Shown here in pieces: positions 11,667-17,457 of a DNA stretch of 64,000 nt (position 1 is its first letter; each line of letters starts with the position of its first letter). A program made the position numbers and the translations under genes. Source of the DNA: Deferribacter autotrophicus (GTDB taxonomy: Bacteria; Chrysiogenota; Deferribacteres; Deferribacterales; Deferribacteraceae); the NCBI RefSeq assembly GCF_008362905.1, contig NZ_VFJB01000010.1, positions 62,001 through 126,000 of the forward strand, given 5' to 3'. The notes beneath the pieces were generated by a model. It had not been told where the DNA came from. It was given only the letters and a program-made list of their open reading frames with translations, and did no database searches.

Positions 11667-12887
11667 TTAAGTGTTAAATCCCATCATTCTGCGATAATAA
11701 CAATCTCCTTTATTATCAGAAAGAATTTCTTTAATTATACCTTCAACTCTTGTTTGTGATCGATAAAGATTGTAAATATAGCCAGAAATACGTGTATCAC
11801 CAATAAGTTGATAACCATTGATTTTTCCGTTTTTTAAATACACACGGCGAAATAAATCATTGTTTTGCCACGTAATTGCTTCACCTTCAAAAGCTCCTGC
11901 GGAGATAATAGGAAAATTGATATGTTTTTTTAAAACATTTGTATTAATCGACCCCTCATATTTTGTTTTTCCATAAATAATGTTTCGAACTGCAGTACGA
12001 GCTTGCATCATTGCATTAGGATAAGTTGCATAAATTCCCGACTTACCGGTTATGGCATGGGGAGTAACTGCAACATCACCTGCTACATAGATATTTGAAT
12101 CAGCTTTTAAGTTTTCGTCTACTTTTACACCGCTATCATCACCCGTTAAAGGTTCTGAATTTGGTGAAACACCAATAGCAACTATCATCAATTTTGTATC
12201 AACAGATTCTCCATTGCTTAATTTTACGCTCTTTAATTGTCCTGCTTCTTCGATAATATCAGAAACTACTGTTTGCAAACGAATATCAATACCTGTAATT
12301 TCTATTAATTTTTTAGTTGCAAATGCTCCTCCTTCTTGATCTGTCATTTGTGAGAGAACACGAGTATTTCTATGAACAAGAGTAACCTTCAAACCTCGAT
12401 GCCACAAAGAAAGGGCGGCATCAACTCCAATAAACCCGCCACCAAATACAACAACTCTATCTATATTATTTTCACGAATATAACTATCTATTGCAAGCAT
12501 GTCGGTAAGCGTTTTAAACCCAAATACTCCATGGATCTCAAGCCATTCTGGACGTGGATACCAACTTTTTCCTCCTGTTGCAAAAAAAAGCATATCATAA
12601 GTTTCTGTCATCCCGTTGTCGAGATATATCCGTCGACTTTCAGTATCCACTTTAACAACAGCATGTCCCAAACGAGTAGTAACGTTATAGCGTTTATAAA
12701 AATCTTGACCTTTCCAATAAACTGTTTCCAATGGCTCCCCTGCTAAAAAAAATGGCAAAACACAAGGTGAATAAGGAGGAAATTCCTCATTACCAATCAT
12801 AACAATTTCATCTCTATAACCATTATGACGAAGCTTTTCAACAAATTCAGATGCAGCCATTCCGGTTCCAATTGTAACTATCTTCAT
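11667..12887 (-). CDS. CODH-associated FAD/NAD(P) oxidoreductase (FNOR)
   Basis: A 406-residue pyridine nucleotide-disulfide-type flavoprotein. An FAD-binding GTGMAASE motif lies at residues 7-14. A second Rossmann motif, FGGGFIGVD near 148, should bind NAD(P)H. The conserved IYVAGDVA that contacts the flavin lies near 268. Such FNOR genes accompany cooS and cooF in several CO-oxidising anaerobes, where the enzyme is thought to take electrons from the CooF ferredoxin and reduce NAD(P)+. The ATGA overlap with cooF (12884-12887) shows tight coupling. It is the last gene of the coo operon. A rubredoxin or NADH-oxidase role is possible but less likely in this context. Confidence 0.85.
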   Translation of the reverse strand: MKIVTIGTGMAASEFVEKLRHNGYRDEIVMIGNEEFPPYSPCVLPFFLAGEPLETVYWKGQDFYKRYNVTTRLGHAVVKVDTESRRIYLDNGMTETYDMLFFATGGKSWYPRPEWLEIHGVFGFKTLTDMLAIDSYIRENNIDRVVVFGGGFIGVDAALSLWHRGLKVTLVHRNTRVLSQMTDQEGGAFATKKLIEITGIDIRLQTVVSDIIEEAGQLKSVKLSNGESVDTKLMIVAIGVSPNSEPLTGDDSGVKVDENLKADSNIYVAGDVAVTPHAITGKSGIYATYPNAMMQARTAVRNIIYGKTKYEGSINTNVLKKHINFPIISAGAFEGEAITWQNNDLFRRVYLKNGKINGYQLIGDTRISGYIYNLYRSQTRVEGIIKEILSDNKGDCYYRRMMGFNT

Positions 12888-13480
12888 GATTTTTCACCTC
12901 GACGGGCAGCAAATTCTTTTTTACGTAATTCTCTAAACAGTTCAATGTGCTTTGGCATATCCTCTTTATTCATTAAATACACTTTCAAACTTTTGACTGC
13001 TTTTTCATTACGTAATGGTTCAAATTCTTCAAAAGTAAGTGCATTACTATGACAGGCCTCCACACAAGCAGGAATTTTATTGTTTTTTAATCGTTCATTA
13101 CAAAGGTCACATTTATATGCAACATCTCTGCCATATTTTGCTCTATGAGTCTCTTTAAAAGATATAGCATCAAAAGGACAAACCATCGCGCACATAGCAC
13201 AAGCTTTGCAAAGGTCTGGATTAAGAATTACTGCTCCTGTCTCATTATCACGGGTAATTGCCCCTGAGGGACAAGCATCCATACACCAAGCTGGATCGCA
13301 ATGACGGCAGGAAACAGGAAATGCTTCGTGTTCAACAGCAAGAACTCTAACATTAACTTGAGTTTTTTTATCTCCAAGCAAACCAAAAAGACTATGAGAA
13401 GGATGGTGTTCTATTGCACAAGCAATTTCACAAGCTTTACAGGCAACACACTTTTTGTAATCCACAAATATTTTTTTCAT
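12884..13480 (-). CDS. cooF: CooF-like polyferredoxin, electron carrier of CO dehydrogenase
   Basis: A 198-residue iron-sulfur protein with four groups of cysteines: CVACKACEIAC, CRHCDPAWCMDAC, CKACAMCAMVC and CDLCNERLKNNKIPACVEAC. This is the pattern of the four-cluster ferredoxins that include CooF and the electron-transfer subunits of many oxidoreductases. It lacks a signal peptide, so it is cytoplasmic. Lying between cooC and FNOR, it should pass electrons from CooS to the flavoprotein. It is two bases from cooC and overlaps FNOR by four bases. Confidence 0.9.
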   Translation of the reverse strand: MKKIFVDYKKCVACKACEIACAIEHHPSHSLFGLLGDKKTQVNVRVLAVEHEAFPVSCRHCDPAWCMDACPSGAITRDNETGAVILNPDLCKACAMCAMVCPFDAISFKETHRAKYGRDVAYKCDLCNERLKNNKIPACVEACHSNALTFEEFEPLRNEKAVKSLKVYLMNKEDMPKHIELFRELRKKEFAARRGEKS

Positions 13481-13481
13481 T

Positions 13482-14333
13482 TTAACTCTCCTGCAGAGTC
13501 TTTTGTTTATGATACTTTTGAAACGTCAATAAGCTTTCCACTAATTTTGAAATTTCTACAATATAAAGGCTATTTTCATAAAAAATACGAGTAACATCTG
13601 GCTCTAATGCTTCGAAACGTGGTTCTGAAGGCAAATAGAAAACACTATCGAATAAATTTGAAAAATCAGACTGGGTCATTGTTTCAAATCGAGTCAATTG
13701 TTTTTCATTATTATTTTTTACTTTATTAATAATCAAATGAACGTAGGGAATGCCAATTTGTCTAGCTAATTCAGCTGAATGTTTGGCTACAGATAGGGCA
13801 TTAAAAGTACTGTCAGAGATTACTAGACATTGCGAAAAGCCTTTTGACAAAGCACGTCCGAAGTGTTCAACTCCAGCTTGAGTATCAAGTATAATTACCT
13901 CATTATCGCGTAGCGCCAAATGTTTAATTACCGAATCCAGCAATACATTTTCAGCGCACAAACAGCCAGCAGCAGCCTGAACAACCGTTCCCATAACTAA
14001 TAAATTTAAATTATCATCAACTTTTATCCCAAATCGTTGAACCACGTCTTCTACTCTTGGGTTAAGTCGAAATAAAGAGCCCCAGGATTTACCAGGACGA
14101 ACACCTGTTTTTTCTTCAATATAATCAAGATTTTTATTTAACGGTACAATTTTGGAAGCTTCTTCAATTGGCAAGCCTAATGCATATGGAAGATTCATTT
14201 GTGGATCCTCATCCACGGCAAGAACATTCATACCTCGCATTGCTAATAATTTAGCAATACATGAGGTTAGTGTTGTTTTACCAACCCCACCTTTCCCTGT
14301 TATAACAATTTTAAAGTCTTTATTATCATACAT
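13482..14333 (-). CDS. cooC: CooC, nickel-insertion ATPase for CO dehydrogenase
   Basis: A MinD/NifH-type P-loop ATPase that matures the Ni-Fe-S C-cluster of CooS. The P-loop is the deviant form ITGKGGVGKTT near the N-terminus, followed by DEDPQMNLPYALG. A CxC pair (GCLCAENVLL) matches the cysteines through which CooC dimers bind metal. I chose the ATG at 14333, which follows GGGGAAAG, rather than an in-frame TTG four codons upstream. The protein is then 283 residues, close to the family norm of about 250-270. The gene lies directly behind cooS, as in other CO-oxidising organisms. Confidence 0.9.
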   Translation of the reverse strand: MYDNKDFKIVITGKGGVGKTTLTSCIAKLLAMRGMNVLAVDEDPQMNLPYALGLPIEEASKIVPLNKNLDYIEEKTGVRPGKSWGSLFRLNPRVEDVVQRFGIKVDDNLNLLVMGTVVQAAAGCLCAENVLLDSVIKHLALRDNEVIILDTQAGVEHFGRALSKGFSQCLVISDSTFNALSVAKHSAELARQIGIPYVHLIINKVKNNNEKQLTRFETMTQSDFSNLFDSVFYLPSEPRFEALEPDVTRIFYENSLYIVEISKLVESLLTFQKYHKQKTLQES

Positions 14334-14346
14334 GACTTTCCCCAAC

Positions 14347-16260
14347 CTAAATTCCTAATGCTGTACGTTTTTCTAAAATGATTTCTTCCATACGTTTTGC
14401 TGTAGCTTCTGGTCCTTCTTCAATAAAGAAATAACCGCCGAGCAATTCTTTTGCACCTTCTGTAAGAATTTTTGTTACCTCTGGACCACCAAGTATAGGA
14501 GGAGCTGGCCAAAGGTGAACTGGAACTCCTGAACCAACAAAATAGGTACCTATTGCTACAGCTTTTTCAGTCATCCATTCTGGAGCAGAACCAACTAATG
14601 GTAAATCTGAAATGTCCACATCAAGATGTTCTGCTAATGCACCGGCCAACACCAACATTCTTGAACAATCAACACAAGACCCCATATGCAATACAGGTGG
14701 AATGTCAAGTGCTTTACAGACTGCCTTTAATCCTTCCCCAGCAAGTCCTTGAGCACTAATATCCATTAAACCTGCCTTAGCTGCTCCAATCGCCCAACAA
14801 CCTGTACCAATAACAAGGATATCACGTTTAATTAATTCCTTAGTTAATTCTTGGTGATATAAATCCTGTTTCACTTTAACATTATTACATCCAACTATAC
14901 CTGCCACTCCTTTTATAGAGCCTTTTGCAATAGCATCTACCAACGGTGCAACTGAACCACCAAGAATTTTAAGAATTTCTTCAACACTAAATCCTACAAT
15001 TGCATTTGAAATATTAGACGGAATATAAACTTTACTTTTATCTCTATTTGGGAATGCATCGATACCTGCTTGCACAATCTTACGAGCGATATCATTTGCT
15101 TTTTCTTCATCAAATTGAATATGAATGGCACCTGGTATTGCTGCTTGTTCATTTGTAGTAATAAATTGAGTGTGGAAACAATTTGATAACTTAGCAAGTG
15201 ACGGATAAATACACTGAACATCAACAACCATTGCTTCAACAGCACCAGTCATTATAGCTAATTCACTATGTAATTCATTACCTGCAATACCAACGCCTTG
15301 ACGCATTAATAATTCATTACCAGTACAACACAATCCTGCCACATTTACTCCTTTTGCTCCAACTTTGCGAGCAGCTTCTTGCATTTCTTCGGAAAGAGCT
15401 ATCTCAACCACTTTTTCTGAAAGTATTGGTTCATGACCGTGAATAATAATGTTCACATACTCAGCATCTAATACACCGAGATTAGCTTTTACGGTTTTTA
15501 TAGTTGGAGTTCCAAACAAAATATCTTGTATTTCAGTAGCTATCAAAGAACCTGCCCAACCATCGGAAAGAGCACAGCGAACAGTTTGCATCATAAGTGA
15601 GAGTGGATCAGCATCACAACCGAAGTGGGTACGGTGTAATATATCCACAGCTTCACGATCAATACCACGAGGTAGCAGGCCCATTTTTTTCCCAGTTTTT
15701 TCAAATAACATTGTTTCTATTTCCTTTAACCGCTCAATTCGTTTTTTAGGCATATACTTTTGTAAGAAAATAATGGGCTCCTCATCTTGTTTTCCAAAAC
15801 AGTTGATTGCTACATCAGCTACATCACTGGCAATTTCAAGATATGAGCGACCTGCAGTATTAATACCAAGACGAGTTGCAACTGCTTTCAATTTCTCAAC
15901 ATCAGTAATTCGATAATCTTTATTCTTACCTATCGCAACTTCTTTTAGTAAGAGTGCGGCTCCTCGACCATGGTCAGAATGTGAAGATGAACCAACAGCA
16001 GCCATACGAGCTAAATTGCGAGCTACGATTGTATCTGCAGTAGCTCCACAAACACCATGGGTTGGTTCCTCACCAAAAGGATTGATACGACATGGGCCCA
16101 TTGTACATAAACGACAACAAGTTCCCAATTGTCCATAACCACATTGTGGTTGCTGTTTTTCTAATCTATCCCAAATTGTTTCATATTGCTTTCTCTCGGC
16201 TAAATTCAACATTTCTATAGCAGCAGGGTCTGCACTTCTCTTGCGTGATAATTCGCTCAT
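14347..16260 (-). CDS. cooS: Anaerobic Ni-Fe CO dehydrogenase catalytic subunit CooS
   Basis: CooS oxidises CO with water to CO2, releasing two electrons and two protons. The 637-residue protein has full family length. Cys40 and Cys48 fit the D-cluster, and Cys49, Cys52, Cys57 and Cys71 the B-cluster. C-cluster ligands are recognisable in IIHGHEP (His), GLCCTG, VQCIYPS, GCNN, GTGCW and MGSCVDCSR. The proton-relay region SHSDHGR is present. There is no acetyl-CoA synthase gene nearby, so this is a monofunctional CODH. ATG follows GGAGGTTTATC, a strong ribosome site. Gene order cooS-cooC-cooF-FNOR points to CO oxidation for NAD(P)H supply or CO detoxification. Confidence 0.95.
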   Translation of the reverse strand: MSELSRKRSADPAAIEMLNLAERKQYETIWDRLEKQQPQCGYGQLGTCCRLCTMGPCRINPFGEEPTHGVCGATADTIVARNLARMAAVGSSSHSDHGRGAALLLKEVAIGKNKDYRITDVEKLKAVATRLGINTAGRSYLEIASDVADVAINCFGKQDEEPIIFLQKYMPKKRIERLKEIETMLFEKTGKKMGLLPRGIDREAVDILHRTHFGCDADPLSLMMQTVRCALSDGWAGSLIATEIQDILFGTPTIKTVKANLGVLDAEYVNIIIHGHEPILSEKVVEIALSEEMQEAARKVGAKGVNVAGLCCTGNELLMRQGVGIAGNELHSELAIMTGAVEAMVVDVQCIYPSLAKLSNCFHTQFITTNEQAAIPGAIHIQFDEEKANDIARKIVQAGIDAFPNRDKSKVYIPSNISNAIVGFSVEEILKILGGSVAPLVDAIAKGSIKGVAGIVGCNNVKVKQDLYHQELTKELIKRDILVIGTGCWAIGAAKAGLMDISAQGLAGEGLKAVCKALDIPPVLHMGSCVDCSRMLVLAGALAEHLDVDISDLPLVGSAPEWMTEKAVAIGTYFVGSGVPVHLWPAPPILGGPEVTKILTEGAKELLGGYFFIEEGPEATAKRMEEIILEKRTALGI

Positions 16261-16291
16261 GATAAACCTCCCTATAATATTTGATCATAGT

Positions 16292-16325
16292 TTTATATAT
16301 TTTTATTTGAACATAACAACGTTAT
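16292..16325 (-). promoter_or_regulatory. Candidate coo operon promoter and overlapping dyad
   Basis: Reading leftwards, TTGTTA (16314-16319) and TATAAA (16292-16297) with a 16-base spacer form a plausible promoter ahead of cooS. The -35 lies inside the dyad ATAAC-AAC-GTTAT (16313-16325), a natural place for a regulator to bind. LytTR regulators favour GTT-containing direct repeats, and AACGTTGTTATGTT here has GTT words, so the PAS-LytTR protein at 16390-17097 is a candidate. Unproven. Confidence 0.35.
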
Positions 16326-16389
16326 AATAGTGAATTGCATAATAAATTGGTTAATGGTATTAAAATGGAAGTGAAAGAAATAGGACAGA

Positions 16390-17097
16390 TTATTTTAAAC
16401 CTATTTTTTTTGAAAAATCGGCTACTTTGCTTCGGCTAATTGGCAATGAAACATCACAACCCTGAAGTTGCAATAAATATGATTGACCATCTTTTATTAC
16501 CTTTTCAATTTTAGTAAGATTAATTATATAGCTACGGTGAATCCTATAAAAATATTCAGTTGGTAATCGTTCTTCAAGAAATAATAGTGAAAAATCACAA
16601 AGATACTCCCCATCGATGGTATAAATTTTAGAATAAACATTTTCTGCTTTTATGTATAATATTTCAACAGGATCTATTAAATATATTTCCTTGCCTAAAG
16701 TTACAGGTATTTTGATGAAAGTTTGCTCCTGATTAGTGATATATGGAGTAATATCATAAACAAGCATACAATTTAAGTTTTCATCGTTATTATTACTCAA
16801 TAAAGGAATTAATTTAATGAACAAATAATGATCTTTATTGTGAGCACTAATTCTTTTAAATGAAAAAGGAACAGGTCTACTGGAATCCTTCATTAGCCGC
16901 AACATAGCTTTTATTTTATTTTGCGCTTTAACATCATGTAGCCCCATGATATCACTCGTAAACAGTTCTTCTTTACTAAATTCCGAAAATGTTAATAGTA
17001 TAACTCTATTTATGTATTTGACGGATAAATTGTCATCAAATAAGATAATACCTGGATCTAATTTTTCGAGTATCTTTAGTAGCCTTCTACCTTCCAT
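16390..17097 (-). CDS. PAS-LytTR transcription regulator, RcoM-like candidate CO sensor
   Basis: A 235-residue one-component regulator placed directly upstream of cooS on the same strand. Residues 1-115 form a PAS domain (GIILFDDNLSVKYINRV, ending LVYDITPYI). Residues 130-235 form a LytTR DNA-binding domain (EILYIKAENVYSKIYTIDG, YFYRIHRSYIINLTKIEKV, LPISRSKV). This architecture is that of RcoM, a haem-PAS sensor activating coo/cox genes when CO binds. His54 in IMGLHDVKAQ is in a good place for the proximal haem ligand. I see no clear counterpart to the distal Met of RcoM; nearby candidates are His86 and His90. Haem binding is an inference from context. Confidence 0.75.
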   Translation of the reverse strand: MEGRRLLKILEKLDPGIILFDDNLSVKYINRVILLTFSEFSKEELFTSDIMGLHDVKAQNKIKAMLRLMKDSSRPVPFSFKRISAHNKDHYLFIKLIPLLSNNNDENLNCMLVYDITPYITNQEQTFIKIPVTLGKEIYLIDPVEILYIKAENVYSKIYTIDGEYLCDFSLLFLEERLPTEYFYRIHRSYIINLTKIEKVIKDGQSYLLQLQGCDVSLPISRSKVADFSKKIGLK

Positions 17098-17273: not shown

Positions 17274-17385
17274 CTTGCAATAAATAGATTATCTTTAAAA
17301 ACTGAGGAATGCAACGAAAAAATTATTGTAGATTTTCATAACTTATTCTTAGACTATTCTTTATTTAGGAAGACAAAAAAGAAAA

Positions 17386-17457
17386 GCGGGCGACGGGGCT
17401 CGAACCCGCTACCTCAAGCTTGGGAAGCTTGCGCTCTACCAGGTGAGCTACGCCCGC
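17386..17457 (-). tRNA. tRNA-Gly (anticodon CCC)
   Basis: A 72-base cloverleaf: acceptor GCGGGCG pairs with CGCCCGC, the anticodon stem is CAAGC/GCTTG around the loop TTCCCAA, and the T loop is TTCGAGC. The anticodon CCC reads GGG glycine codons. No CCA is encoded. Confidence 0.95.

Follow-up and report, generated by a model that had tools for sequence, protein, structure and literature searches.

The window analysed here, 64,000 nucleotides of the Deferribacter autotrophicus genome, carries a gene for an RcoM-like one-component regulator beside genes for anaerobic CO oxidation, and raises the question of which residues would hold the haem iron if this protein senses CO. The open reading frame begins with ATG, occupies positions 16390..17097 of the minus strand and gives a product of 235 amino acids. 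A LytTR domain was clearly recognized in the protein itself (PF04397, E = 2.1e-24, residues 137-232). No PAS domain was detected when the protein was searched against Pfam, and the NCBIfam sensory_box model gave an E value of only 0.024, under its cut-off. In the ortholog P0007, PAS_9 scored above its cut-off (32.9 bits versus 27), and PAS_4 and PAS_9 each matched 13 of 23 N-terminal domains of the family at E ≤ 0.01. By this family evidence, the N-terminal half (about residues 1-122) is assigned as a PAS domain. LytTR was the only domain found in the protein by Pfam, with no trace of the CRP/FNR fold and helix-turn-helix of CooA.

The cooS gene (14347..16260, minus strand), encoding the catalytic subunit of an anaerobic Ni-CO dehydrogenase, was identified by TIGR01702 (742 bits versus a cut-off of 478) and begins 129 bp downstream of the regulator gene on the same strand. 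Genes for a cooC-like ATPase for Ni insertion (13482..14345), a cooF-like 4Fe-4S protein (12884..13480) and an FAD-NAD(P) oxidoreductase, FNOR (11667..12887), also lie on the minus strand. Their matches were all under cut-off (MinD-like proteins only, Fe-S subunits and pyridine nucleotide-disulfide oxidoreductases, respectively), and the names are those of the cluster order in PMC6896113. That paper describes an rcoM-cooS-cooC-cooF-FNOR cluster in D. autotrophicus, FHQ18_12140 to 12160, in which FHQ18_12160 is RcoM; the gene studied here is very probably FHQ18_12160, already annotated as RcoM. The RcoM-type architecture and gene position claimed in a preliminary description of this locus were borne out by LytTR in the protein, PAS through its orthologs and the adjoining cooS. 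The same source reports growth of D. autotrophicus on CO with nitrate, as well as a second CO dehydrogenase cluster and a separate CooA homolog in its genome, so that cooS may have another CO regulator. A second cooS on the same contig (38845-40695 of the complete contig, 59% identical) matches the CODH-II cluster of PMC6896113. A search of this genome revealed no second full-length rcoM.

RcoM-1 and RcoM-2 of Paraburkholderia xenovorans resemble the present system in combining PAS and LytTR, in the aligned His, in having CO-oxidation genes as neighbours and in a three-repeat type of binding site, of which the window has a candidate. The nearest sequence to them that was used, from P. aromaticivorans (L028), is 27.7% identical to the window protein. 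Burkholderia-type RcoM is encoded beside aerobic cox genes, whereas the window gene stands beside anaerobic coo genes. For the RcoM of Geobacter sulfurreducens (GSU2099), whose host belongs to a different phylum, PMC4703632 reports the order rcoM-cooS-cooC-cooF-FNOR and 27% identity to B. xenovorans RcoM. Three geobacterial-type homologs (L031, L032 and L036) are 44-46% identical to the window protein.

Relatives were sought in several sets of genomes. At E ≤ 1e-20 the family was matched in 4 out of 50 genomes from the same phylum, with D. autotrophicus itself among the 4, and in 43 of 277 genomes from the class to which a geobacterial-type locus belongs; the sister species in the genus had no match at this threshold. 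It was also found in 14 of 297 sampled genomes from the phylum of a Thermodesulfatator locus and had no match in 195 genomes of another phylum. A marker search for close proteobacterial genomes returned none, one of its thresholds being too strict, and the aerobic RcoM type is represented by two Burkholderiaceae proteins only (L028 and L029). In total, 67 proteins were aligned, leaving out duplicate places (L041-L044, L048 and L092-L094), the truncated L023, the LytTR-only L002 and a further 20 rows that lacked a match over the full length. On the examined stretch, cooS was present for 44 of the 67, always on the same strand, following the regulator gene in 40 cases and preceding it in 4. The flanks examined were mostly 1,500 bases, and some of the other 23 proteins may be cooS-linked too. 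The window protein is 26-52% identical to its cooS-linked homologs. Among the Deferribacterales, rcoM also adjoins cooS in three further genomes (L003, L004 and L005, in G005, G012 and G024); according to PMC6896113, by contrast, cooS was missing from all other members of the phylum with a genome sequence by 2019. The gap between rcoM and cooS exceeds 900 bases in all four of L100-L103, whose CooS proteins are 46-54% identical, and in L100 a cooF-like gene, read by eye, lies between rcoM and the more distant cooS. In one Deferribacterales genome (G012), a second PAS-LytTR paralog (L020, 84-818), near a contig end and partly masked, carries Gln where the proximal His would be.

In RcoM, the haem ligands are numbered His74, Cys94 and Met104, of which Met104 is the distal one when the iron is ferrous; the number Met104 appears in the title of a paper. 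In the Burkholderia homolog L028 the corresponding residues are His75, Cys95 and Met105, that is, His, His+20 and His+30; each is one higher than in RcoM, which fits His74/Cys94/Met104. His54 of the window protein (codon 16936..16938, minus strand) aligned with the proximal His74 and was His in all 44 cooS-linked homologs. Among 18 representatives sharing less than 70% identity, G16, H54 and D115 were the only invariant columns of the PAS domain. His54, like His86 and His90, was located where the preliminary description had put it, and its proposal as proximal ligand agrees with the alignment. Since His is also common at this position in other PAS domains, the conservation of His54 alone is no proof of haem.

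The distal side is different. The RcoM Met104 column is occupied in the window protein by Phe80 (codon 16858..16860, minus strand) in both a MAFFT alignment and an hhalign profile-profile comparison of 49 CooS-type proteins with 16 others (Burkholderia RcoM and a Met-type family), which gave the same register. No Met occurs within residues 70-110; the nearest are Met65 and Met69, on the helix after His54, and Met111, on the last strand. The earlier remark that the expected distal Met is not apparent therefore withstood two alignments, either of which could have placed a Met there. Cys94, which serves RcoM as a ligand when the iron is ferric, belongs to a stretch of four residues that is absent from the CooS-linked group; the window protein thus lacks both the Cys and the Met that Burkholderia-type RcoM has at His+20 and His+30. 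An alternative register with a three-residue gap before Met104 was tried and rejected: column 83 is Ile in the window protein, and Met in only 8 of the 44 cooS-linked homologs.

Nor is the missing Met peculiar to the window protein. Among the 44 cooS-linked homologs the Met104 column holds Leu in 23, Ile in 16, Phe in 4 and Met in 1, so that 43 have no Met there. By these alignments, the absence characterizes the anaerobic CooS-linked lineage as a whole. A second PAS-LytTR family in the geobacterial-type class (L077-L090), with no adjoining cooS in the examined stretches, keeps the proximal His and has Met in the Met104 column in 12 of 14 rows (not in L078 and L090), but lacks Cys94 like the CooS-type rows. 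One of its members, L083, has a porin-like and a rhodanese-type protein as neighbours (read by eye). Because the Met104 and Cys94 features are missing, the window protein is classed on its sequence as an RcoM-like, CooS-linked variant, not as RcoM in the strict sense. A literature search with the primary RcoM papers outside its scope yielded no paper on the missing Met104 in Geobacter-type RcoM; one may be in print. The haem with which the protein and nearly all of its operon-linked relatives would sense CO is probably open, or capped in a different way.

It had been suggested that His86 or His90 might take the place of the distal Met and give a bis-His haem. Both residues are present (codons 16840..16842 and 16828..16830, minus strand) and lie close in sequence to the aligned Met104 place; some relatives (8 of 44) have a His at position 85, and PMC13060918 describes a haem-PAS transcription factor with bis-His ligation. 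However, neither residue is conserved, with His in 1 of the 44 cooS-linked homologs at position 86 and in 2 at position 90. In RcoM numbering they align with Asn107 and Arg111. In a low-confidence model with predicted strands at 78-85, 88-99 and 108-115, they flank the G-H turn at residues 86-87, His90 lying at the start of strand H. Because the two residues are unconserved and sit at this turn, bis-His ligation is unlikely, and we give His86 or His90 very little chance of being the distal ligand. A five-coordinate haem, the other option raised in the preliminary description, would fit better.

A sixth ligand might instead have been relocated to the last PAS strand, where Met111 or Cys110 (codons 16765..16770, minus strand) would cap the haem and be displaced by CO, leaving the chemistry RcoM-like. 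The Burkholderia RcoM homolog has a Cys-Met pair like Cys110-Met111, position 110 is Cys in 33 of the 44 cooS-linked homologs, and residue 111 presumably faces inward, going by FixL numbering. Met111 is shared with the nearest rows in the tree (L095-L097). Column 111 is, however, Met in only 4 of the 44 and Ala in 24, and hence not a ligand for most of the group; we consider this relocation unlikely. A combined form, in which the CooS-linked lineage would sense CO without the Met/Cys switch of aerobic RcoM and with an evolutionarily loose sixth ligand, mostly absent but regained on a different strand in some members, the window protein included, at Met111 or Cys110/Cys111, is more doubtful still. 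On balance, the reduced haem of the window protein is probably five-coordinate or has no more than a weakly bound sixth ligand.

A full-length structure model had good structural matches for LytTR and poor ones for PAS, and a PAS-only model (pLDDT 61.6) had no VIA-align match at Z ≥ 5. The best non-LytTR chain against the full-length, low-confidence model was Aer2 (4hi4), a weak match (E = 0.011, and 0.44 in another comparison). A sequence search of the PDB at E up to 0.01 found no RcoM structure. The haem-PAS proteins FixL and Aer2 differ from the window protein in their output domains, and PMC10468136 places the proximal His on the E-alpha/E-eta segment in Aer2 and on F-alpha in FixL.

Direct repeats were found between rcoM and cooS. 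PMC11347149 describes RcoM sites as three repeats of 8 bp (TTCNNGCA) separated by 12-13 bp, and reports that LytTR regulators mostly act as activators, binding upstream of -35. A pattern, TTYACMAG, was chosen by eye from the promoters, and every spacing between 10 and 33 was scored for pairs in 36 rcoM-cooS gaps, those of the 40 loci with cooS following except four gaps of more than 900 bases. A score of 14 or higher, out of 16, was reached by pairs in 11 gaps at spacing 20 and in 12 at spacing 21, and in at most 3 at any other spacing. Equal stretches of cooS, the rcoM 3' end and the other strand gave no pairs at spacings 14-27. Among 13 diverged representatives, 5 had pairs at spacing 20, 2 at spacing 21 and at most 1 elsewhere. 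The loci share ancestry and the pattern had been drawn up on these very sequences, so the counts support the spacing and are not an independent test of the motif. In relatives, the 8-base direct repeats upstream of cooS are spaced by exactly 20-21 bases, which is the layout of the reported RcoM sites; none were seen at two distant loci (L106 and L107). In the window, the candidate operator TTCACTTC-21-TTAACCAA-20-TTCACTAT (16327..16375, minus strand) ends 66 bases upstream of cooS. This triplet (p = 0.056 in comparison with shuffled sequences; p = 0.23 for its pair) is weaker than the repeats of the relatives.

From the sequence comparisons we infer haem binding, a CO response, the coordination number and activation, and favour, with a probability of slightly over one half, an RcoM-type one-component haem-PAS CO sensor that switches on the adjoining CO dehydrogenase operon. 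Haem b would be held by His54, the only conserved ligand, and in the reducing anaerobic cell its iron would be ferrous. The distal side would be lined by hydrophobic residues such as Phe80 and offer no strong protein ligand, leaving the iron five-coordinate or with a weak sixth ligand. CO would bind the haem iron directly and change the shape of the PAS dimer, and the LytTR domains would then turn on cooS-cooC-cooF-FNOR by binding the three direct repeats of 8 bases that lie upstream of cooS. The PAS domain might instead sense something other than CO, or hold no haem, the cooS linkage then reflecting regulation by redox or a metabolite. The silence of Pfam on a PAS domain in the protein itself would agree with this, but the invariant His aligned with that of RcoM, the tight linkage to cooS and the RcoM-like repeat spacing make it highly improbable. 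In RcoM, CO takes the place of the Met ligand and is bound very tightly thereafter (PMC9670170), and RcoM is in development as a CO scavenger (PMC11160397). Paper titles indicate that the redox change of aerobic RcoM goes along with a Cys/Met switch; anaerobes that keep the haem ferrous may need no such switch.

A tree of 66 rows (L012 omitted) was built. A split with support of 99/97 separated Burkholderia RcoM and the Met-type family from 50 CooS-type rows; the tree program warned that long branches meet at this split, and the tree, having no outgroup, favours neither ligand state as ancestral. The window protein joined rows of the class search and of the G102-phylum search in a set of 16 rows (96/91); as it sits on a long end branch (0.39), its exact place is unsure. 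The set does not include the three other cooS-linked proteins from Deferribacterales, which suggests that the window gene was horizontally transferred. A tRNA-Gly(CCC) gene lies at 17385-17457 (minus strand), 287 bases upstream of the rcoM start, and the G+C content of the coo genes (11667-17097) is 0.37-0.38 versus about 0.26-0.35 in the flanks. Together with the tree, these features hint that the coo genes are an island acquired next to the tRNA gene.

A natural lineage that guards its CO dehydrogenase without Met104 and Cys94 would show if CO sensing depends on the ligand switch, or if the switch is rather an adaptation to oxygen. Such a lineage would also caution against transferring the coordination chemistry of RcoM to Geobacter-type homologs on the basis of annotation. 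If the sixth ligand is indeed loose, open-site and capped CO sensors would exist within one family.
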